A stretch of 34,845 nucleotides of DNA, from NCBI GenBank assembly GCA_013297655.1, contig JAAFHV010000017.1, positions 26,439 to 61,283 of the forward strand, read 5' to 3'. Below the pieces are notes generated by a model. The model had not been told where the DNA came from and searched no databases. It worked only from the letters and a program-made list of their open reading frames with translations. Source of the stretch: Myxococcales bacterium (GTDB lineage: Bacteria; Myxococcota_A; Polyangia; Polyangiales; Polyangiaceae). Position 1 is the first letter of the stretch, and the number at the start of each line of letters is the position of its first letter. Position numbers and translations under genes: made by a program. Positions 5,933 to 27,623 of this stretch are shown piece after piece.

Positions 5933-5957
5933 ACGTACTAGCTTGGAGTCGCGGCTC

Positions 5958-6905
5958 ATGACGGCAACGCCTCCCGAGACTCCCGAGTCCAAGGGGGAGC
6001 CCCCCCGAACGAACTCGGCGCTATCCGAGGATTCTACGCGCGCCTCCGAAGCCTCGGAGCAGGCTCCGCCGCGTGGAACGGACGGTTCCTCACGCCAAAC
6101 CGAAGCGCCGGACGAGGCGGCGGTTCGCGCGCGTCCGAAGATGCCGGTTCGCGCCCTGAATACGGGCCCTCACGATGCGTCCAATGCAAAGCTAGCCCGC
6201 ATCAAGGAAGCCGAGGAAGATCGTGAGCTCATCGCGCGCGCACAGGAAGGTGACAAGGCAGCGTTCCGACGACTCGTCGAACGCCACCAGCGCCGCGCGT
6301 TCGCGATCGCTCTCTCCCTCGTCCGCGACGAAAACGACGCCCGCGAGCTCGTTCAAGACGCGTTTCTCCGGGTGTTCAAGGGCCTCGGAACGTTCCAGGG
6401 TGGCTCTTCGTTCTTCACCTGGCTCTACCGCATCATCACGAACCTCAGCATCGACCTCATCCGCAAGCCGGGTCGCCAGCTCGTGGAGCTCGAGCCCTCC
6501 CGTGTGGACGCGGACGACGCTCGCGACGCGGAGTATCCGCTCGTCGCTCGGATCGACGGCGCCGACCCTATCGACGTGGTCCGCCGCCGCGAAATCGCGG
6601 CCCGTCTCAAGATCGCTCTCGATGCCCTGCCGCCCTACCACCGGGGTGTCATCGTGATGCGCGAGATCGAAGGCCTCAGCTACGAAGAGATGGCACAGGC
6701 CATGAATGTGTCGAAGGGCACGATCATGAGCCGCCTCTTCCACGCCCGCCAAAAGCTGCAAAAAGCGCTTTCCGATTGTTACGGGGAGCAGATCGACGGC
6801 CCGATTCGCACGCGCGCCGCCGAACAAGAAGATTCCCCCGAGCCCGAAGCCGAGGTGGAGCGCGACTCCGACGGCGAAGAAGAACAGCGAGGCATGCCAT
6901 CATGA
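5958..6905 (+). CDS. RpoE-like ECF sigma factor
   Basis: A 315-residue RNA polymerase sigma factor with only the two ECF domains. Sigma region 2 is about 100-170 (AFRRLVERHQRRAFAIALSL, then DARELVQDAFLRVFKGLGTF and SFFTWLYRIITNLSIDLIRK). Region 4 is about 216-270 (ALPPYHRGVIVMREIEGLSY with a helix-turn-helix EEMAQAMNVSKGTIMSRL). The first 80 residues are a Pro/Ser/Glu-rich extension and the last 40 are acidic; ECF factors are usually about 190 residues, so both ends are additions. The ATG at 5958 is preceded by GGAG (5945-5948) at 9-nt spacing; the in-frame TTG at 5943 overlaps that site and was rejected. Its stop overlaps the next start (ATGA), which encodes its likely anti-sigma factor. Confidence 0.9.
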   Translation: MTATPPETPESKGEPPRTNSALSEDSTRASEASEQAPPRGTDGSSRQTEAPDEAAVRARPKMPVRALNTGPHDASNAKLARIKEAEEDRELIARAQEGDKAAFRRLVERHQRRAFAIALSLVRDENDARELVQDAFLRVFKGLGTFQGGSSFFTWLYRIITNLSIDLIRKPGRQLVELEPSRVDADDARDAEYPLVARIDGADPIDVVRRREIAARLKIALDALPPYHRGVIVMREIEGLSYEEMAQAMNVSKGTIMSRLFHARQKLQKALSDCYGEQIDGPIRTRAAEQEDSPEPEAEVERDSDGEEEQRGMPS

Positions 6906-7453
6906 GCCTTCCCGGATCCGACTTTCTCATCCTCCAGGCGTACGCCGACGGAGAGCTCGAGGGGACCGAGTTGGCCGCCGCGGAGAAGCTCGTCGCCGAG
7001 AACGCCGACGCCCGCGCCTTCGTCGAGTCGCTCGTCGTGTTGGGCTACGGCGTTCGCGCCGCGCACGAGCTCGAACCACTTCCCGCGATCGACCTCACCT
7101 CGGCCGTCATGGGCAAGCTCGAAGCCGAGCCAGTCGCGCAAGTGCGGCCCGCCGCTTCGGTCACCAGCCTCGCCGCTCAGCGCGAGCGTCGCGCCCAGAA
7201 ATCGCAAGTCGTGGTGATGATCGGGGCGCTTGCCCTCGCGGCCGCGGGAATTCTCTATCTCCGGGGTCGCGGTGAAGAAACGCCGAAACCCGAGGTCGCG
7301 AGCGTGGTCCCCACGCCGAGCGCGAGCGGGGTCGAGGTCTCCAACATCGATTCGAGCGGCGACAAGAACGTCTCTGTCTTTTACTTGCCGGCTTCGGGCG
7401 GGAACGCCGCCTCGAGCGTCGTCGTATGGATCGACGAAAAAGGAGCTCCCTGA
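6902..7453 (+). CDS. Probable anti-sigma factor, single-span, lacking zinc ligands
   Basis: A 183-residue membrane protein. The N-terminal cytoplasmic part (about 1-50) has the FLILQAYADGELEG shape common in anti-sigma domains. The whole protein has no cysteine, so the HXXXCXXC zinc motif of ZAS-type domains is absent. One transmembrane segment at about 103-120 (VVVMIGALALAAAGILYL) is flanked by basic residues, and a periplasmic tail of about 60 residues contains SVFYLPASGG and SVVVWIDEKG. Placement directly after, and overlapping, an ECF sigma factor gene supports the role: holding the sigma factor at the inner membrane until a signal. The stop overlaps the next ATG (TGATG at 7451-7455). Similarity is modest and the call relies heavily on context. 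Confidence 0.7.
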   Translation: MSLPGSDFLILQAYADGELEGTELAAAEKLVAENADARAFVESLVVLGYGVRAAHELEPLPAIDLTSAVMGKLEAEPVAQVRPAASVTSLAAQRERRAQKSQVVVMIGALALAAAGILYLRGRGEETPKPEVASVVPTPSASGVEVSNIDSSGDKNVSVFYLPASGGNAASSVVVWIDEKGAP

Positions 7454-13772: not shown

Positions 13773-14420
13773 TTACTCTGCGTCGTTCACGGCGCACTGC
13801 GCCCGGTCGGGGAGGAAGTGGTCCATGCGGAGGCGCTTGGCTTCGAGGTACCCCGCGGAGAACGCGTTCGGAGTGACGATCACACCTTCGCGCGAGTCCA
13901 CCTCGACCCCGAGCTCGCGGAGGGCCGAGACCTTCATCGGGTTGTTCGTGAGAAGGCGCACGCTCTCGATCTCGAGGAACTCGAGCATGTCACGCGCGCA
14001 GTCGTATTCGCGCGAGTCGTCCGGGAGGCCGAGGAGGCGATTGGCGTCGACCGTGTCGTGGCCGCGTTGCTGGAGGGCGTACGCGCGGATCTTGTTCGTC
14101 AATCCGATGCCTCGCCCCTCTTGGCGGAGGTACAAGATGGCGCCGAACCCACGTTGCGCGACTTCGGCCATCGCCGCGTCGAGCTGCTCTTTGCAGTCGC
14201 ACTTGAGCGATCCGAAGACCTCGCTCGTGATGCACTCCGAGTGGACCCGGACGGGGACCTCTCGCTTGCCGCCCACCTCGCCGAAGACGAGAGCGACGTG
14301 CTCCTCACCGTTGGTTCCGCGAAACACGTGAGTCTTGAAAGTTCCGTGGCGGGTCGGCAATTCGGCCATCGCCTGCCACTCGGTTCGAGGCCGGATCTCC
14401 CGTTTCTGGGGGACGTGCAT
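13773..14420 (-). CDS. ribA: GTP cyclohydrolase II
   Basis: A 215-residue stand-alone RibA, the zinc enzyme that opens GTP to the pyrimidine precursor of riboflavin. Zinc ligands C63, C74 and C76 lie in SECITSEVFGSLKCDC. The substrate motif RQEGRGIGL is at 99-107, the catalytic tyrosine in IRAYALQ is about Y114, and the lysine of TNNPMK is at 163. The ATG at 14420 has AGGAG at 6-nt spacing; starts further upstream would add an unrelated R/P-rich lead. Many bacteria fuse RibA to RibB, but here it is separate. The leader carries a promoter-like pair and a hairpin. ribF, later in the same pathway, lies 10 kb away on the same strand. Confidence 0.95.
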   Translation of the reverse strand: MHVPQKREIRPRTEWQAMAELPTRHGTFKTHVFRGTNGEEHVALVFGEVGGKREVPVRVHSECITSEVFGSLKCDCKEQLDAAMAEVAQRGFGAILYLRQEGRGIGLTNKIRAYALQQRGHDTVDANRLLGLPDDSREYDCARDMLEFLEIESVRLLTNNPMKVSALRELGVEVDSREGVIVTPNAFSAGYLEAKRLRMDHFLPDRAQCAVNDAE

Positions 14421-14454
14421 CTCTTGCTCCTGCTGTTCGATTCTTCTTGGAGGA

Positions 14455-14473
14455 GGTCGGGGTTTCTCCGACC
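14455..14473 (-). other. Hairpin in the ribA leader
   Basis: GGTCGG (14455-14460) and CCGACC (14468-14473) pair perfectly around a 7-nt loop, about 25 nt before the ribA ribosome site. I searched this leader for the conserved boxes of the FMN riboswitch and saw none, so any role in control is open. Confidence 0.3.
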
Positions 14474-14481
14474 AGGAGCCG

Positions 14482-14509
14482 AATGTAAAGCCGATTCGGC
14501 GGGAGTCAA
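14482..14509 (-). promoter_or_regulatory. ribA: Candidate sigma70-type promoter for ribA
   Basis: On the minus strand TTGACT (14509-14504) is followed after 16 nt by TACATT (14487-14482), a reasonable -35/-10 pair about 60 nt before the ribA ATG. The spacer and -10 overlap a 7-bp inverted repeat, GCCGAAT (14478-14484) / ATTCGGC (14494-14500), which could be an operator or mRNA structure. Confidence 0.38.
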
Positions 14510-14603
14510 ACCTCGTGGTCACGTGAAAATCATCGAAACGTTTGTGAAATTCACGAGAACAGGTCGTTCTTCAGAGGAGCGTAGTCGGCGCTCTCGACCG
14601 TCT

Positions 14604-16694: not shown

Positions 16695-18359
16695 ATGTCG
16701 GATCGTTCTGGCGCGACCCGATCGGACGCCACAGATCCGTTGATTGGGCGGACGATCAACGACCGCTTCAAGATCACTCGCCTCATTGCGCGCGGTGGCA
16801 TGGGGAAGGTCTACCTCGCCGAGCAGGCTCCGCTCGGGCGTCTCTGCGCGGTCAAGGTGCTGAACCCGAGCTACAACGGCAACGCCGAGCCGGAGTTCCA
16901 CAAGCGGTTCTTCCTCGAGGCGAGCGTCACGTCGCGGCTCTCGCACCCGAACACCGTGACCATCTTCGACTACGGCGTCACGGACGACGACTACTACTTC
17001 ATGGCGATGGAGTACCTGGAGGGCCAAACCCTCTACCAGGCCATCCGCAAAGACGGTTTCATCGTCGAAGAGCGCGCCGTCAACATCGTGAGCCAGATTT
17101 GCCGCGGCCTCCGCGAGGCGCACGCGATTGGCGTGATCCACCGCGATTTGAAGCCCGCCAACATCTTCCTCGTTCGCCACGGCGACGAGCCGGACTTCGT
17201 GAAGATCTTGGACTTCGGGCTCGTGAAGAACGTGCTCGAGAAGGCCGAAGATCAGATCACCCAAACGGGCCTCTTCATGGGCTCGCCGAAGTACATGGCG
17301 CCGGAGCAGATCCACGGCGCCGCGGTCGACGCGCGGACGGATATTTATTCGCTCGGGATCGTGCTCTGCGAAATGCTCACCGGTCGCGTGCCGTTCGACC
17401 GCGCGACGAGCGTCAGCATCCTGATGGCGCACGTGAGCGAGGCCCCGCCCGCGCTCGCGGATCTCAAGCCGGACATCGTGGCCTCGATCGAAGTGGAAGA
17501 CATCGTGCGGCGCTGCCTCGCGAAGAATCCCCAAGACCGATACACGTCGATGGACGATCTCCTCATGGCGCTGCGTGTCGCGGCGGGCGTCAGCATGACG
17601 GGCCAAGTGTCGGCGTTCCCGCTCGCGTTCTCGGCCGAACGAAAGCGCGCGGCGGCGAGCGGATCGCAGCCGGTCGTTCTGCGCTCGGGGCCACTCGGGC
17701 AGGTGAACGCGAGCGGCGGGATCCCCGTTCACGTCACCGGCTCCGTGCAGGTCCCGGTCGCTCCGACGAGCGGGGGGGGCCAGAGCCAAACTCCCATGTC
17801 GCTCACGAGCGACGACATGCCGCCGGCGATCTTTCCTCGTCGGTCGCGCCTCTCGTTGCCAATCACGCTCGCGGTCGCCGCGGCGGTGGGAGGGCTCGGA
17901 GGCCTGGTCGCATACAAGATCTCCACGGCACCGCCGAGGGTCGCGGCGGGGCCCGTGCTCATGCCCTCGGCGAGCCAGGCGCCCGCTCCCACCAGCGCGC
18001 CAGAAGCATCGGCGGCCCCGAACGGATCGGTCGCGTCAGTCGCATCGGTCGCACCGCGCGCACCCGACAATCGGCAAGCGATGCTGCACGTCGAGTCGTC
18101 TCCCGCGGGAGCCATCGTGCGCCGCGAGGGGGTGGAGCTCTGCCACGTCACGCCCTGCGATATCTTGCTCACCGGCTCCGATGCCGCGCCGGACAAGGTG
18201 CTGTCGCTGGTGATCCAAAAGCCTAACTTCAAGCCCTATCCCGTCGACGCGAAGGTGTCGGAGGGGAAGGTGAGCGCGAAGCTGGTTTGGGCGGGCGCCG
18301 GGCACCCGCCGAAGGACCCGACCGCGCCCACGCCGAGCGGCTACAAGGGCGCCTACTAA
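16695..18359 (+). CDS. Receptor-type Ser/Thr protein kinase with PEGA-like C-terminal domain
   Basis: A 554-residue Hanks-type kinase. Residues 24-295 form the kinase domain: glycine loop ARGGMGKVY (32-40), K54 in CAVKVL, HRDLKPAN (149-156) with D151, DFG (173-175), SPKYMAPEQ (197-205) and DIYSLGIVLCEML. All catalytic residues are present, so it should be active. A linker rich in S/G/P leads to one membrane span at about 387-408 (SLPITLAVAAAVGGLGGLVA). The outside part has an Ala/Pro/Ser linker and a PEGA-like domain (about 461-535: AMLHVESSPAGAIVRREGVE, TPCDILLTG, LVIQKPNFKPYPV). It would phosphorylate cytoplasmic targets in response to an envelope cue. No substrate is identifiable; the next gene on the strand is the TonB-dependent receptor. 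Confidence 0.93.
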   Translation: MSDRSGATRSDATDPLIGRTINDRFKITRLIARGGMGKVYLAEQAPLGRLCAVKVLNPSYNGNAEPEFHKRFFLEASVTSRLSHPNTVTIFDYGVTDDDYYFMAMEYLEGQTLYQAIRKDGFIVEERAVNIVSQICRGLREAHAIGVIHRDLKPANIFLVRHGDEPDFVKILDFGLVKNVLEKAEDQITQTGLFMGSPKYMAPEQIHGAAVDARTDIYSLGIVLCEMLTGRVPFDRATSVSILMAHVSEAPPALADLKPDIVASIEVEDIVRRCLAKNPQDRYTSMDDLLMALRVAAGVSMTGQVSAFPLAFSAERKRAAASGSQPVVLRSGPLGQVNASGGIPVHVTGSVQVPVAPTSGGGQSQTPMSLTSDDMPPAIFPRRSRLSLPITLAVAAAVGGLGGLVAYKISTAPPRVAAGPVLMPSASQAPAPTSAPEASAAPNGSVASVASVAPRAPDNRQAMLHVESSPAGAIVRREGVELCHVTPCDILLTGSDAAPDKVLSLVIQKPNFKPYPVDAKVSEGKVSAKLVWAGAGHPPKDPTAPTPSGYKGAY

Positions 18360-18555: not shown

Positions 18556-21099
18556 ATGGCGAATTTCGCGTGGCGCAGTCGTTCCGCCCTTCGCCGGGTC
18601 GCGCTCGCGCTCGCTGTTTTGTCGAGCCTCGCGGTGTCGTCCACGGCCCACGCCGACGCTCGCGCCGAGGCCCGCACCCACTTCAAGGCCGGCATGGCCG
18701 CGATCGCGGCGAAGAGCTACGACGTCGGCATCGCGGAGCTCGAGCAGGCGTACGCGATCCTGCCGCACCCGAACGTGCTCTTCAACATCGCGCGTGCGCA
18801 CGCCGAGGCGGGCCACACCGAGAAGGCGATCGACGCCTATAAGAAATACCTCGAGGGCGACTCGGCCGACAAAGAGGAAGTGCAGAAGGTCGTCGCGCAG
18901 CTCGAGGTCCGCCTCGCGCAGGAGAAGGCCGCCGCAGAGCCGCCGCCGGTCGCCCCGGTGCCCGCCGTCCCCGTCGCGCCCAAGCCAGACGTCCCCTGTC
19001 CTGACCCGAAAGACCCTGTAAAGCCCGAGATCGCGCCCCCGCCGAAGGTGGTCGCCAAGCCCGCGCCGAAGGTGCCGGAGAACCTCGGAACCGCGCGCAC
19101 GGAAGACGTGTTCGAGGAGACGGTCGTCACCGCGTCGCGCGGAAAGCAGAGCCCGCTCGACGCGCCGAACTCCACCGCGATCATCACCGAACAAGACATT
19201 CGCCTCTCCGGCATCACGAAGATCCCGGAGCTGCTCCGGCGCCTCGCCGGGATCGACATCATGGAGGTCACTGGCGGTCAAACCGAGGTGAGCATTCGTG
19301 GGTTCAACCAGCGCCTCTCGAACAAGGTGCTCGTGCTCGTCGATGGCCGCAGTGTGTACGTCGATCTGCTCGGCGCTACGCTGTGGCAGGCGCTCTCGAT
19401 CGGCGTCGAGGACATCGACCGCATCGAGGTGGTGCGCGGCCCCGGCTCCGCCCTCTACGGCGCCGACGCGTTCAACGGCGTCATCAACGTGATCACGAAG
19501 CGCCCCGGGCAGGGAAAAAACGGGGTCGCCGGCGGCTATGGCAGCCAGAACGTGGCGCACGGCAGCTTGTGGGCGTCGGGGCAAAACAAGGGCTTCGGCT
19601 GGCGCGCAGCGGCCGGTTACGACTACCTCCCGCGCTGGTCGCGCGAGGTGCCCAACGGTCGCGCCGACGTGCGCCTCGGGGTCGCCGATCAGGTGGAATC
19701 TGCACGCACCGTCCGCATCGACGTACGTGGCAATCAGAAGCTCGGAAAAGACACCAACGTTTATCTTGGCGGCGGGCTCGTGCAGGGCAATCTCGAAGTC
19801 TTGGGCATCGGCGCGCTCAACGACCTCGTGCTCCCGAACCTGGTCGCGACCGATCTCACCGGCGGCCTCACGTCCAAGTACCTCGACGTGCGCACGTTCT
19901 GGAACCGCTTTCGGACCGACTCCACGCTGAACGTGGCCTACGAGGGGCAGTCGCTGTTGCCTTCGCGCGCGGAGCAGAACATCGTCGACAACGAGGCCCA
20001 GCTCAAGGCCGGCTTCGACGTGACGGAGAACATCCGGAACGAGCTCCGCGCGGGCGGGAGCTACCGCTTCAAAGACGTCAACTGGACGTTCTTGGACCGG
20101 CAGAGGACCGAGCATCACTTCGGTATCTTCTTCCACGACGAGCTCTCCTTCTCGAAGAAGGTGACCATCGTCGGTGACATGCGCCTCGACTACGTGCCTT
20201 ACCTCGGGCGGTTCGTGCCTTCGCCGCGCGGAGCGGTGCTGTTCCACCCTACGAAACGCTCCACTCTGCGCGCCACCGTCGCGACCGCGTTTCGTAAGCC
20301 CACGTTCATCGAGTCCTATCTACGACTGCCGGTGAACTTGCCTGTCGCGGGCGGTACGTCGATCACCGAAGGGGTTCGCTCGGAAGATCCCGGCTTCAAG
20401 GTGGGGCCCGAGCGCATCTTCAACGCCGAAGTGGGCTATCGCACCGAAGACTCCGAGAAGATCGTGATCGACGCTTCGGCCTATTACAACCGCGTGTCGA
20501 ACTTGATGCAGCTCTCCGGCGCGAGGCCCATCACCGTGGGCGACATCGCCGCCGGCGCGCGCGCGTTCGACCCGCAGGCGGGGCAGTTCCCGCTCCTCAT
20601 CGGTGGCTTCTCGAACCAGTGCCAGCTCTACAATACGTTCGGCGGTGAGCTCTCCGTGCGCACGTTTCCGGTGGAGGGCCTCGACCTCTACGGCAGCTAC
20701 ACGCTGAACCTCACGAACCAAGACGAGTCGGGCTGTACGGCGCAAGATCGCATCTCGCAGGCGATCACGACCGACGCGCGGACGAGCGTGCACAAGCTGA
20801 ACGCCGGCGTGCAGGTGCGAACCAAGGTGGGTATCGACGGCTCGGTCGACTTTCACTTCGTCGGCGGTCAAACGTGGGCCGAGCAGGTCACGAACGCGGT
20901 CGCGCAGCGCATCGAGTACCAGCAGTTCGAGCTCCCCGCCTATACCCTCCTCAACGCGCGCGTCGGTTATCGTTTCATGGAAGACCGCGCCGAGATCTCG
21001 GTCGCGGGCTTCAACCTCGTCGGCGTACAGCACCGTCAGCACCCCTTCGGGCAGCTCCTCGACCGGCGGGTCATGGGCCTCGCCACGTTCCGCTTTTGA
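18556..21099 (+). CDS. TonB-dependent outer-membrane receptor with N-terminal TPR domain
   Basis: An 847-residue active-transport receptor. After a signal peptide (ALALAVLSSLAVSSTAHA, cleavage before D34) comes a TPR-like helical domain at about 36-120 (HFKAGMAAIAAKSYDVGIAE, LFNIARAHAEAGHTEKAIDAY). A Pro/Val/Lys-rich linker (about 127-178) then leads to a TonB-box-like stretch EETVVTAS (188-195). The plug domain follows (about 200-315: TAIITEQDIRLSGI, EVSIRGFNQRLSNKVLVLVD, IEVVRGPGSALYGADAFNG, NVITKRP), then a 22-strand-type barrel ending FRF. In ordinary receptors the TonB box is at the mature N-terminus; here a periplasmic protein-binding domain precedes it. Substrate is unknown. It is followed after 8 nt by a lipoprotein gene, a likely partner. 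Confidence 0.92.
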   Translation: MANFAWRSRSALRRVALALAVLSSLAVSSTAHADARAEARTHFKAGMAAIAAKSYDVGIAELEQAYAILPHPNVLFNIARAHAEAGHTEKAIDAYKKYLEGDSADKEEVQKVVAQLEVRLAQEKAAAEPPPVAPVPAVPVAPKPDVPCPDPKDPVKPEIAPPPKVVAKPAPKVPENLGTARTEDVFEETVVTASRGKQSPLDAPNSTAIITEQDIRLSGITKIPELLRRLAGIDIMEVTGGQTEVSIRGFNQRLSNKVLVLVDGRSVYVDLLGATLWQALSIGVEDIDRIEVVRGPGSALYGADAFNGVINVITKRPGQGKNGVAGGYGSQNVAHGSLWASGQNKGFGWRAAAGYDYLPRWSREVPNGRADVRLGVADQVESARTVRIDVRGNQKLGKDTNVYLGGGLVQGNLEVLGIGALNDLVLPNLVATDLTGGLTSKYLDVRTFWNRFRTDSTLNVAYEGQSLLPSRAEQNIVDNEAQLKAGFDVTENIRNELRAGGSYRFKDVNWTFLDRQRTEHHFGIFFHDELSFSKKVTIVGDMRLDYVPYLGRFVPSPRGAVLFHPTKRSTLRATVATAFRKPTFIESYLRLPVNLPVAGGTSITEGVRSEDPGFKVGPERIFNAEVGYRTEDSEKIVIDASAYYNRVSNLMQLSGARPITVGDIAAGARAFDPQAGQFPLLIGGFSNQCQLYNTFGGELSVRTFPVEGLDLYGSYTLNLTNQDESGCTAQDRISQAITTDARTSVHKLNAGVQVRTKVGIDGSVDFHFVGGQTWAEQVTNAVAQRIEYQQFELPAYTLLNARVGYRFMEDRAEISVAGFNLVGVQHRQHPFGQLLDRRVMGLATFRF

Positions 21100-21107
21100 G
21101 CCCACCG

Positions 21108-22793
21108 ATGAACCACCTTCGAGCCAAATTCGCCTGGAACGCGCCGCAACGTGCGGCCGCCGTGATCGCGCGTGGTGCGCTCTTCGGCGCCGTCGTGGTC
21201 GCGTGCACGGTGCCGATCGACGACTCGCGCGACGACAAGCGGCTCCTGCCGGCGCAGGGCGTGATTCGTGGAACGGTGACGTACGTCGGTCCCCGCCCTT
21301 GCACGCAGAACCGCCGCGTCGTCGGCAACGCGATCGTCTTGGCGTTCGATCGACGTAACCCGCCGCCGCCGAACGGCATCGCCTCCGGCGCGGTGAACTT
21401 CGCCGTCGTGCCCGGCGATACCCTCTTTGCGAACGAGCCGCGTACGCGCGGGGCGGAGGTGTCGTGCCCGCCGACGAGCGAGCTCGTCAGTGTGTCGTCG
21501 CCGTTTACCCTCTCTCCGCTCGCGGCGGGCTCGTACACGCTGGTCGCGTTCTTCGATCGCGGTGGCCGCTTTTTGCCGCAATTTCGCTATCGGAACCAGC
21601 CGGAAGCGGGTGACCTCGCCGGCGGCTACTTGGATGTCCGCGACGCGGAGCTCAACCGCGGAAATCCGGCCTACGCGCCGCAGTACTTGCCAGTCGACGT
21701 CGGCGTCGCGAACGCGGATGGCAACTTCACCATCCCGCCGCAAGGCGCCCTGACCGACAACGTGCCCGTCACGATCGGCCAGACCGTGACCACGAACCGG
21801 CCCTACTTTTACCCGGAGGGCGCGCAAGATCCGTCGCTCGTGTCGCCTACTCCGGCGAATCCCTCCGGCGACGCGAAGTACGTCCCCGTGATCACGATGA
21901 CGCAGGATCATCAGATCCTCGCGGTGCCGGACGTGTTCAACGTGGACACCCTCACCCTCTACGAGCAGGGCTACAAAGCGGTCTCCCTCGGCTACGGCGT
22001 GCCAGACGAAGAGCGCGCCGACGCGACGGCGCTCGACAAGCCGTTCGGCCTGCCCCTCGAGGCGCTGCCACCGCAAGCCAACGGCGGCCTCTTGGTGTTC
22101 GGGCGTGGCGGTTCGTTGCCGGAAAATCAAAGAATTCCGAGCTATTGGCCGAGTGTCAACTTCCGCAAGCTCGACGACGATCCGAACCACGAGAAGGACC
22201 CGCAGAGCCTCTCGTTCCAAGGTGGCGCGAAGGCCCCCGCGGTCGTGATTCAGGGCGTGACGCTGCTCGACGAGAGCATGGTTCGCACCGTCGCCGGTCC
22301 GGTGGCAGCCGGCCCTGCGACGAGCACCCTGCGAGGCAAGGTGCGTGTGCTCGTGCGGCCGCAGGCGCTCTGCATCGACTCGCTGCGCCCCGATCGTGGC
22401 GGCGTGCTGGTGACGCCGCACCTCACCGCGAAGAGCGCGAACCCCACCGAGACGGGCGAGCGCGCCCTCGTGGACGAGGCGCGCGTGAAGCAGGCGAACA
22501 GGCTCGTGTTCGAGGTGCGGCGCGGGTGTTTGCCGCTCGGCCGATACGGCATTTCGGCGGCCTACCCCTCTGGCCAAGTGTGGAGTGTGCCGAACGAAGC
22601 GGGGGCCTGCGCGCCGCTCGAGGGCAGCTTGATCGAGCGCGACGGCACAGGTTCGTGTGCAAAGAAGCCGCGCCCGATCTTGTATTCGCAGGGGCCGCGC
22701 GCGGTGCTCGAGATCGTGCCCCCGACGACCCCGGAGGGCGAGCGCACCTGCCAAGAGAACCCCGTCCCGGACGAGTGCCTTCCCTCGCGGTAG
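21108..22793 (+). CDS. Large lipoprotein paired with the TonB-dependent receptor
   Basis: A 561-residue lipoprotein with an N-terminal signal ending VVVAC (lipid site about C33) and a following TVPIDDSRDD. The mature part is beta-rich; its beginning resembles a carboxypeptidase-regulatory-like fold (GVIRGTVTYVG, NAIVLAFDR, PLAAGSYTLVAFFDRGGRF). Later parts (YVPVITMTQDHQILAVPDVF, GVTLLDESMVRTVAG) are not recognised. A few cysteines near the end (GACAPLEG, GTGSCAKK, ERTCQENPVPDEC) may form disulfides. The ATG lies 8 nt after the receptor stop, so the genes are almost certainly one transcript, and this protein may act as a surface or periplasmic partner of the receptor, as SusD-like or other lipoproteins do for their receptors. 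It is not SusD-like in sequence. Confidence 0.78.
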   Translation: MNHLRAKFAWNAPQRAAAVIARGALFGAVVVACTVPIDDSRDDKRLLPAQGVIRGTVTYVGPRPCTQNRRVVGNAIVLAFDRRNPPPPNGIASGAVNFAVVPGDTLFANEPRTRGAEVSCPPTSELVSVSSPFTLSPLAAGSYTLVAFFDRGGRFLPQFRYRNQPEAGDLAGGYLDVRDAELNRGNPAYAPQYLPVDVGVANADGNFTIPPQGALTDNVPVTIGQTVTTNRPYFYPEGAQDPSLVSPTPANPSGDAKYVPVITMTQDHQILAVPDVFNVDTLTLYEQGYKAVSLGYGVPDEERADATALDKPFGLPLEALPPQANGGLLVFGRGGSLPENQRIPSYWPSVNFRKLDDDPNHEKDPQSLSFQGGAKAPAVVIQGVTLLDESMVRTVAGPVAAGPATSTLRGKVRVLVRPQALCIDSLRPDRGGVLVTPHLTAKSANPTETGERALVDEARVKQANRLVFEVRRGCLPLGRYGISAAYPSGQVWSVPNEAGACAPLEGSLIERDGTGSCAKKPRPILYSQGPRAVLEIVPPTTPEGERTCQENPVPDECLPSR

Positions 22794-24980: not shown

Positions 24981-25994
24981 TCAGCCGAACGGACCCGACG
25001 CGGGGACGGGACGGGTCGCAGCGAGGTGCTTCGCGGCGGCCGTATCGGACGCTATCTGGCCTTTGAGAGCGTCGAACGAATCGAACTTCTTCTCGTCTCG
25101 GATGCGGTCGTGCACGTGCACGCGGAGGGTTTGACCGTAGAGATCCTCGTCGACGTCGAAGAGGAACACCTCGGCGTGGCGGGTCGTACCGTCGCCGCTC
25201 ACGGTGGGGCGCGTCCCGAGATTCATGACTCCGTTGGCGAGGGCGCGCGCGCCCTCCGGAGCGAGTCGATCGACCGCGACCGCGTAGACGCCGTTCGCGG
25301 GCAGGGCCTCCGAAATATCGCCGAGGTTCGCAGTCGGGAAGCCGATCGTTCGCCCCTTCTTCGCGCCGTGGACGACGACCCCCGAGAACGTGTGCGGACG
25401 TCCGAGCAAATCGCGTGCAAGATGCACGTCCCCGAGGGCGAGCGCCTTGCGGACCCTCGTGCTCGAGATCGGGCCGTCGGAGTCGGCCAAGAGCACGGCC
25501 GCGAAGGCGTCGCACCCGTCCTCCGCCGCGACCGCGCGGAGCACGTCGAAGTCCCCCCCGCGGCTCTTCCCGAAGCGAAAATCGGCGCCGACGACGACCA
25601 CCTTCGCGCCGAGGCCACCGGTGACGAAGCTCTTCACGAAGTCGTAGGGGGGCGTCTCCGCGAACGCGGCCGAAAACCGTGCAACATACACGCGTTCGAC
25701 GCCGTGCCTCGCGAAGAGCTCCACGCGTCGCTCGAGGGTGGAGAGCCGCGCGGGGGCGGCCTTGCCGAGCACCGTCGCGGGGTGGGGGTCGAACGTGAGC
25801 ACCGACGGGACCAGATCCCGAGCCTTGGCGAGCGTGCTCATCTGTTCGAGCACGGCCACGTGCCCGCGGTGCACGCCGTCGAAGTTTCCGATGACGACCG
25901 CCGTTCGTTCCCCGCCGTTCGGAGGAGAGACACGCGCGCCCTCGGGGGTCGCGTCGACGGTTTGCACCTCGGGAAGGGGCACGGAGCGGGGCAC
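24981..25994 (-). CDS. ribF: Bifunctional riboflavin kinase / FAD synthetase
   Basis: A 337-residue enzyme that phosphorylates riboflavin to FMN and adenylates FMN to FAD. The N-terminal nucleotidyltransferase domain has AVVIGNFDGVHRGH at 32-45, FDPHPATVLGK, VVGADFRFGKSRGGD and ISSTRVRKAL. The C-terminal kinase domain has GRPHTFSGVVVHGAKKGRTI, GFPTANL, GVYAVAVD, VMNLGTRPTV and AEVFLFDVDEDLYGQ. The GTG at 25994 is preceded by AGGGGAG at 4-nt spacing, and no ATG lies nearby in frame. A 204-nt divergent gap separates it from the Rho-N/DUF4912 gene. ribA is on the same strand at 13773, so two flavin genes are unlinked within 12 kb. Confidence 0.95.
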   Translation of the reverse strand: MPRSVPLPEVQTVDATPEGARVSPPNGGERTAVVIGNFDGVHRGHVAVLEQMSTLAKARDLVPSVLTFDPHPATVLGKAAPARLSTLERRVELFARHGVERVYVARFSAAFAETPPYDFVKSFVTGGLGAKVVVVGADFRFGKSRGGDFDVLRAVAAEDGCDAFAAVLLADSDGPISSTRVRKALALGDVHLARDLLGRPHTFSGVVVHGAKKGRTIGFPTANLGDISEALPANGVYAVAVDRLAPEGARALANGVMNLGTRPTVSGDGTTRHAEVFLFDVDEDLYGQTLRVHVHDRIRDEKKFDSFDALKGQIASDTAAAKHLAATRPVPASGPFG

Positions 25995-26198
25995 GATGCT
26001 CCCCTTAGCACGACACGGCGAAGGGCGCGGTGAAGGCGCGGGGCCGGTCGTGGGGACGAGAACGCCGCGGAGACGCTTTTTTGGTTCCGACGATTTTTCG
26101 CCTTTGATACCAAGGTACTCGATGACCCGAGGAGGTCCTGAAGAGGGACGCGTGCCGTCCGTCGGCAAGGACTTTCGAGGATCGTCGCGGAGGAGCTC

Positions 26199-27623
<1,425 letters not shown>

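Follow-up and report, generated by a model that had tools for sequence, protein, structure and literature searches.

A TonB-dependent receptor with an N-terminal TPR domain and its candidate Ser/Thr kinase partner in Myxococcota

The window examined here, a stretch of 34,845 nucleotides from a Myxococcales bacterium (GCA_013297655.1, contig JAAFHV010000017.1), harbours a gene for a TonB-dependent receptor (TBDR) that carries a tetratricopeptide repeat (TPR) domain in front of its TonB box. A preliminary description of this gene had raised the possibility that the TPR domain recruits a periplasmic partner or senses assembly state. Concerning the partner, the coevolution evidence described below suggests that it is probably the tail of the Ser/Thr protein kinase encoded upstream; we found nothing pointing to assembly-state sensing. 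We propose that receptor and kinase constitute a pair spanning the envelope, in which the TPR domain would dock the kinase tail and the kinase would provide the output, a reading that we somewhat favour as a whole. Considering its parts, the two proteins are very likely functional partners and the TPR domain likely binds the tail, and we lean, by a modest degree, toward signalling instead of mere tethering.

Results

Architecture of the receptor

The order of parts given in the preliminary description, an N-terminal TPR-like domain, a Pro-rich linker, a TonB-box-like motif, a plug and a barrel, was borne out by Pfam, AlphaFold2 and homologues (Table 1). The matches to Plug and to TonB_dep_Rec_b-barrel (PF00593; residues 442-821, E 1.8e-23) both lie well over the Pfam cut-offs, as expected of a TBDR, and among solved structures Foldseek placed Cir and BtuB nearest to the receptor model. 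TPR_19 was found at residues 49-116 (E 1.6e-5, 25.6 bits against a cut-off of 25). In the alignment of the window receptor and its homologues, here designated family A (alignment A1; 28 of 32 rows, excluding the incomplete L072, L076 and L078 and the family-B receptor L079), all 28 members matched TPR_19 at E≤0.01, the best with an E value of 6.4e-10. The AlphaFold2 model built from A1 (mean pLDDT 81.3, pTM 0.78, low confidence at residues 131-173 and 187-205) displays the anticipated helical repeat, with helices at residues 35-51, 55-68, 72-85, 88-99 and 106-127 (ten-residue mean pLDDT mostly 69-88). According to this model, the region is made up of two TPRs and a capping helix, about 93 residues in all. 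The 28 matching members and the helical model lead us to reject a chance match to TPR_19. The motif EETVVTAS is, from its position before the plug and from what is familiar of such motifs, presumably the TonB box, and we regard it as putative.

The TPR-linker-plug order occurs in a single open frame in many genomes of the order and also elsewhere in the phylum, in other families. Among named records, a Labilithrix metagenome-assembled genome supplies the nearest homologue (best segment 61% identical), in keeping with a polyangial myxobacterium as the most likely host. The recurrence of this order in many genomes excludes the case, considered at the outset, of a separate TPR gene fused to a receptor only here by an assembly error. 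The domain occupies the place of the signalling domains of FecA-type receptors and is nonetheless different, as had been pointed out: it is TPR_19, and of the 21 Pfam families to which members of A1 (28 in all) gave matches at E≤0.01, none is STN.

Table 1. Features of the receptor locus in the window and of related kinases elsewhere
Feature	Position	Strand	Basis or remark
Ser/Thr protein kinase, 554 aa	16695..18359	+	Pkinase, residues 26-286, E 6.1e-53; directly upstream of the receptor
Conserved C-terminal peptide of the kinase, SGYKGAY	18336..18356	+	Comparison with kinases of relatives
TBDR with N-terminal TPR domain, 847 aa	18556..21099	+	ATG at 18556, stop 21097-21099
Putative signal peptide, residues 1-33	18556..18654	+	By eye from the sequence; model helix 4-27
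TPR domain, residues 35-127 (two TPRs and capping helix in the model)	18658..18936	+	Pfam, AlphaFold2, homologues
Pro-rich flexible linker, residues 128-186	18937..19113	+	Length differs among homologues; low model confidence
TonB-box-like EETVVTAS, residues 187-194	19114..19137	+	Sequence; consensus EDVYEETVVTASR kept in alignment A1
Plug domain (PF07715), residues 201-309	19156..19482	+	Pfam, E 7.6e-23
Beta barrel, strands from residue 323 to 846	19522..21093	+	Pfam and AlphaFold2 model
Lipoprotein, lipobox Cys at residue 33, without known Pfam family	21108..22793	+	Starts 8 bp past the receptor stop
GTP cyclohydrolase II (RibA)	13776-14522	-	Flanks the cassette
FAD synthetase/riboflavin kinase (RibF)	3' part of 24984-26756	-	Flanks the cassette, other side from RibA
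Extracytoplasmic function (ECF) sigma factor gene	5943-6902	+	Ends 9.8 kb before the kinase gene
Weak RseA_N-like match	6776-7450	+	21.1 bits, cut-off 24
Kinase with C-terminal TonB_C	L378:943-3714	-	46.5 bits, cut-off 24.6
Kinase with C-terminal TonB_C	L399:1435-4053	-	46.8 bits, cut-off 24.6
Kinase with C-terminal TonB_C	L327:358-2451	-	44.4 bits, cut-off 24.6

A kinase gene upstream of TPR-bearing receptors

The translation of the window kinase displays HRDLKPAN and DFG, which we take to be characteristic kinase motifs. A single hydrophobic helix, judged transmembrane by hydropathy, follows the Pkinase domain at about residues 388-406, and the long Pro/Ala/Ser-rich tail beyond it should be periplasmic. 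PEGA matches exceed the Pfam cut-off in the kinases of some relatives (L378, L406).

The order kinase, TPR-receptor, lipoprotein recurs in relatives in the same orientation. Clustering of the genes at 45 loci, the window included, gave receptor at 43, lipoprotein at 32, kinase at 29, RibF at 9 and others at no more than 5; locus L082, lying on the same contig as L059, was dropped. In family A, a same-strand kinase lay upstream of 18 of the 27 receptor copies that could be assessed in relatives, and of 10 of the 11 from named records. The nine copies without one comprise four later tandem copies (L064, L065, L067, L072) and five true misses; at L064, L065 and L067, two tandem TPR-receptors stand behind one kinase.

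We then turn to the other receptors of the same genomes, of which 40 were fetched down a ranked list; one (L231) is a stand-alone TPR gene, leaving 39. Twenty-three of these belong to family B, a second TBDR family with an N-terminal TPR domain, and among the 22 with enough upstream sequence, 20 have a same-strand upstream kinase. In the genome of the window, the family-B receptor at C479 has a kinase upstream. In contrast, none of the 14 assessable TPR-less receptors (of 16) has one (L223 has a divergent kinase); the value obtained by Fisher's test, 6.9e-9, was computed with 0/16. Nor was an upstream kinase present at any of 56 assessable TPR-less receptors of named records, most of which are from other phyla. 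Since the genome of the window (G000; 9.9 Mb, 546 contigs) contains at least 150 kinase matches (150 of 261 candidates scored), we estimate that adjacency by chance would amount to a few per cent.

Each of four family-B proteins scanned has three PEGA stretches, and in this family PEGA and CarboxypepD_reg-like matches lie between TPR and plug. In a tree of the plug domain, A and B fall in separate clades with TPR-less receptors between them and the TPR state changes twice. The TPR domain was thus likely gained independently in the two families, on a tree of few columns and weak deep support.

A conserved peptide at the end of the kinases

The kinase tails are Pro/Ala-rich and unalignable until their last residues, which agree. 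In family A, a strict G[YF]K..PY-like end (SGYKGAY in the window) was present in 20 of 29 kinases, and five more (L055, L059, L061, L062, L069) carry P[YF] within the last five residues. Information reaches 2.98, 2.72 and 2.45 bits at positions -1, -2 and -5, against 0.81-1.86 from -9 to -24. Family-B kinases end in DI[R]xxR-COOH, with a C-terminal R in 21 of 21 and I (19) or L (2) at -5. Among 64 other kinases the A end was not found, and the B end occurred in two, both of which are truly kinases of family-B cassettes (the second kinase of L197, and L242).

Co-occurrence of kinase tail and receptor

Genomes with a receptor but no adjacent kinase were named before kinases were searched for elsewhere in them. 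In all eight that could be assessed for family A, a kinase with the tail was located elsewhere in the genome, ending in GYKVDIPY (G033; a second one in GYKADIPY), GYRDNVY (G055), GYRTDVY (G041), GFKGQPY (G059), GFKDIPY (G016), GYKDEPY (G012), GYRPDIPY (G116) and DFKDDPY (G194). For G033, G055, G041 and G059 the first ending given is that of the best kinase match outside the receptor locus. The G012 receptor is split over contig ends, and G062 is probably the same genome as G194; a Corallococcus (G060), whose kinase is cut at a contig end, G001 and G042 were not assessable. Concerning family B, G019 has a receptor (L203) that lacks a neighbouring kinase; elsewhere in that genome there are two kinases, with the ends LDIQIER and SIRIDR. 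L227 (G050) is uninformative, as its genome has other B cassettes.

Across 59 relatives, the genome of the window included, 27 have both the kinase (orthologues at E≤1e-95) and a family-A receptor, 3 the kinase only, 2 the receptor only and 27 neither (Fisher 3e-11, uncorrected for kinship). The three kinases for which no family-A receptor was found (G015, G023 and G046) all lack the tail; that of G015, a close orthologue (401 bits), stops directly past the PEGA-like region. The tail was present in 25 of 25 genomes with the receptor, several of the tails being looser, and in 0 of 3 without it (Fisher 3e-4), the 25 being the 27 genomes above minus G028 and G036, whose kinases are cut by contig ends.

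A draw of 188 genomes from the phylum gave 20 with the TPR domain at E≤1e-15. Eight of the genomes that were new to the analysis have an upstream kinase, in each case with an A-type tail (GYKNEPY, GYKAEPY, GYKASPY, GYKSNPFD, GYKSNPY, GYKANPFD twice and the looser GYREW). A ninth, G187, was set aside because its kinase end is that of L088 and the organism may be the same; G116, with two receptors, and G194 have no upstream kinase and are counted in the unlinked test above.

In six genomes there is, apart from the first, another kinase that is unlinked and has an A-like tail (L377, L397, L398, L400, L401, L402). This raises the possibility that one receptor serves several kinases, or that the tails have other TPR partners.

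Kinase lineages and the TPR groove

In a quick kinase-domain tree with many open forks, the family-A label requires two changes and the family-B label seven. Forcing the 22 family-B kinases into one clade costs 331 log-likelihood units (p_AU 5.8e-6 in the approximately unbiased (AU) test); this test used 74 of 115 kinases, omitting 24 of the 33 of family A and 17 controls that were picked, once a first tree had been seen, for their long branches or their distance. Family-B kinases are polyphyletic and yet share one common tail, so that the ending looks to be under selection. Either the ending was acquired by different kinases, or kinase domains were swapped behind it.

The primary structure of the TPR domain was compared between the families, with groove positions taken from the alignment and helix boundaries (as opposed to measured geometry) and near-duplicate rows counted. 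At position 40, in the first helix, 44 of 46 family-A rows have a basic residue (R or K) and all 24 family-B rows an acidic one (D or E). At position 83, all 24 B rows have E, and most A rows have A or V. N77, which we take to correspond to the clamp asparagine of HOP, is conserved in 46 of 47 rows of family A and in all 24 of family B; R80 is mostly kept. A basic groove in family A would suit its tails, which often have acidic residues, and an acidic groove in family B would suit tails with arginine.

The same TPR module also occurs in stand-alone periplasmic proteins. For the best 20 of these by E value (L174-L193, of more than 100), a kinase lies within about 1.2 kb, upstream, downstream or divergent, at 10 loci. 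A P-Y-type tail is present in 6 of these 10 kinases versus 1 of 52 other controls, and that single control (L180) itself sits 3.4 kb from a TPR gene. Several of the tails near stand-alone TPR proteins are DNPY-like, and GGF[RH]RFD is found at L178 and L187.

Related kinases and neighbouring genes

The three kinases with a C-terminal TonB_C domain (Table 1), from two relatives and a Corallococcus, are 44-53% identical to the window kinase over the matched parts, and might read TonB boxes directly. As a separate observation, in the genome of the window a TonB C-terminal domain lies N-terminal to the plug in the same frame at 9 of 16 Plug loci (contigs C536, C244, C137, C206, C2, C309, C508, C514 and C537), as judged from the places of the matches, with a Pfam scan for the C309 locus (L016) alone; these would be receptors fused to a TonB domain.

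The lipoprotein encoded behind the receptor is a candidate surface partner of it. Its model is mostly beta, and many cysteines are invariant in its alignment (A2; the window copy and 14 of 27 found among relatives). Neither SusD nor a shared Pfam family was found across the 15 members scanned, and in the fold search no solved structure matched at E≤0.001; a SusC/SusD-type pair, which we had considered, was rejected on these grounds.

The riboflavin genes that flank the cassette are present at 9 (RibF) and 4 (RibA) of the 45 loci, the window counted. They are a possible hint of a flavin link of the receptor, to be taken as a lead alone, as both are housekeeping genes whose synteny may have been inherited. 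The ECF sigma factor gene of the window had no match in the cassette neighbourhoods of relatives. FecI and FecR are not beside the receptor; its recurrent neighbours are the kinase and the lipoprotein.

Discussion

From these results we propose the following mechanism. The TBDR would reside in the outer membrane, its TPR domain facing the periplasm. The kinase would reside in the inner membrane, with its kinase domain in the cytoplasm and its long flexible tail on the periplasmic side. The peptide that ends the tail, specific to the family, would be bound in the TPR groove, as suggested by the coevolution of tail and receptor. Ligand binding, or engagement of TonB at the adjoining TonB box, would then alter the state of the docked tail, which in turn may change the clustering or activity of the kinase. 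That the kinase would read the state of the receptor is suggested by the position of the TPR domain before the TonB box and by the precedent of FecA.

A number of observations weigh against this mechanism. Six family-A receptors (L052, L058, L066, L071, L078 and, as the single miss among named records, L080) and the family-B receptors L203 and L227 have no adjacent kinase. The kinases of L091, L092 and L094 carry a different, GYMPLPDDF-like end, and the kinase L051, adjacent to the third receptor of G033, lacks the tail. Six A-type tails (L055, L061, L069, L360, L367, L368) continue beyond PY or PF by one to three residues, which argues against a strict carboxylate clamp in family A. In G001 and G042 (80% and 85% complete), there is a receptor, cut short where the contig ends, and the search for a kinase orthologue found none. 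Of the three kinases without a receptor, that of G015 alone counts as a clean orthologue; the kinase of G023 scores close to the threshold, that of G046 has a different and long C-terminal part, and both may be paralogues. The PEGA-like stretch in the tail of the window kinase is weak (14.2 bits, below the cut-off of 20.8). Finally, the loci share descent, so that the counts cannot be treated as independent; no correction for kinship was applied to the Fisher values.

The main rival is a tether without signalling, in which contact between TPR and tail would merely position the kinase under the receptor, or the receptor near inner-membrane machinery, the kinase sensing by other means. The coevolution evidence would fit this, as all of it concerns pairing and none of it output, and the linker and the kinase tail are both long and flexible. 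On the other hand, the TPR domain lies directly before the TonB box, in the place of FecA-type signalling domains, and related kinases bear a TonB C-terminal domain that could itself reach TonB boxes. We consider a plain tether doubtful.

Still less probable is that the genes form an operon whose products make no direct contact, the tail binding the cell wall or another protein of the periplasm, and the TPR domain some third protein, for instance TonB or the lipoprotein. TPRs are able to bind a wide range of partners, and the lipoprotein accompanies the receptor at most of the clustered loci (32 of 45). Against it, tail and receptor persist jointly even where they are unlinked and disappear jointly, the charge at TPR position 40 tracks the class of tail, and P-Y-type tails are concentrated in kinases beside stand-alone TPR genes. 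The notion that the conserved ending reflects the DNA itself, for instance a ribosome-binding site for the receptor gene, is hardly credible and was rejected: the kinase frame does end 74-472 bp from the TPR match (in the window, from the start codon) in many loci, 1275 bp at L048, but unlinked kinases retain the ending, the gap in the window is 196 bp, and the A and B endings are unrelated.

Returning to a docked and signalling kinase, its extension beyond a single locus seems to us evenly poised: a code of C-terminal peptides in Myxococcota may wire inner-membrane Ser/Thr kinases to periplasmic TPR modules, and the sharing of tails by kinases of different lineages would give modular signalling from the outer membrane to the cytoplasm, with fusion of a TonB C-terminal domain to the kinase as a sister solution. 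In such a code, G[YF]K..PY would designate family A, DI[R]xxR family B, and DNPY and GGF[RH]RFD the stand-alone TPR proteins. To our knowledge, few designs for signalling from the outer membrane to the cytoplasm have been described, chiefly FecA-FecR-sigma, and few myxobacterial Ser/Thr kinases have an assigned input. If the tail pairs a kinase with a particular receptor, kinase inputs could be assigned from sequence alone, and the pairing predicts peptide-domain pairs suited to simple binding assays.

Comparison with known systems

In carboxylate-clamp TPR proteins such as HOP, the groove reads a C-terminal peptide. Besides a groove that would read an end peptide, a resemblance to HOP is the asparagine at the corresponding helix position (N77). 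The differences are that there are only two repeats here, that the domain is periplasmic, and that the family-A peptide need not be exactly C-terminal; the family-B tails end exactly in R. MkapB is said to be a TPR protein associating with Ser/Thr kinases in Myxococcus, a name absent from the papers that a literature search aimed at it returned. It would likewise be a kinase-partnered TPR protein in a myxobacterium, reportedly with no outer-membrane receptor part.

A short conserved end peptide that recruits a partner also brings to mind the CheR-binding peptide of chemoreceptors; that system differs in being cytoplasmic, in having another fold and in having no outer membrane. The C-terminal pentapeptide of chemoreceptors is described as tethering CheR (PMC3447774). 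Bacteroidetes TonB-dependent transporters with an N-terminal carboxypeptidase-like extension (PMC12204202) also have an extra periplasmic N-terminal domain; it has an Ig-like fold as opposed to the TPR here, and a pairing with kinases is unmentioned in the excerpted text. In the open-access literature, judged mainly from titles and the openings of abstracts, we recognised no description of a TPR domain on a TBDR paired with a kinase.

The closest comparison is with the FecA, FpvA and PupB transducers, TBDRs that likewise carry an additional N-terminal domain in the periplasm, ahead of the TonB box; that of FecA responds to ligand and touches FecR (PMC9249621). As in FecA-FecR, the system proposed here would have an inner-membrane partner with a periplasmic C-terminal part and would pass a signal from the surface to the cytoplasm. 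Membership of the FecA type was considered and rejected after examining the receptor for STN and its neighbours for FecI/FecR: a TPR domain replaces the STN-type domain, FecI and FecR are not neighbours, the proposed partner is a Ser/Thr kinase recognised by a short tail, and the output would be a kinase and not a sigma factor. We therefore place the receptor and kinase outside the FecA type and regard them as a candidate TonB-dependent transducer in the broad sense.

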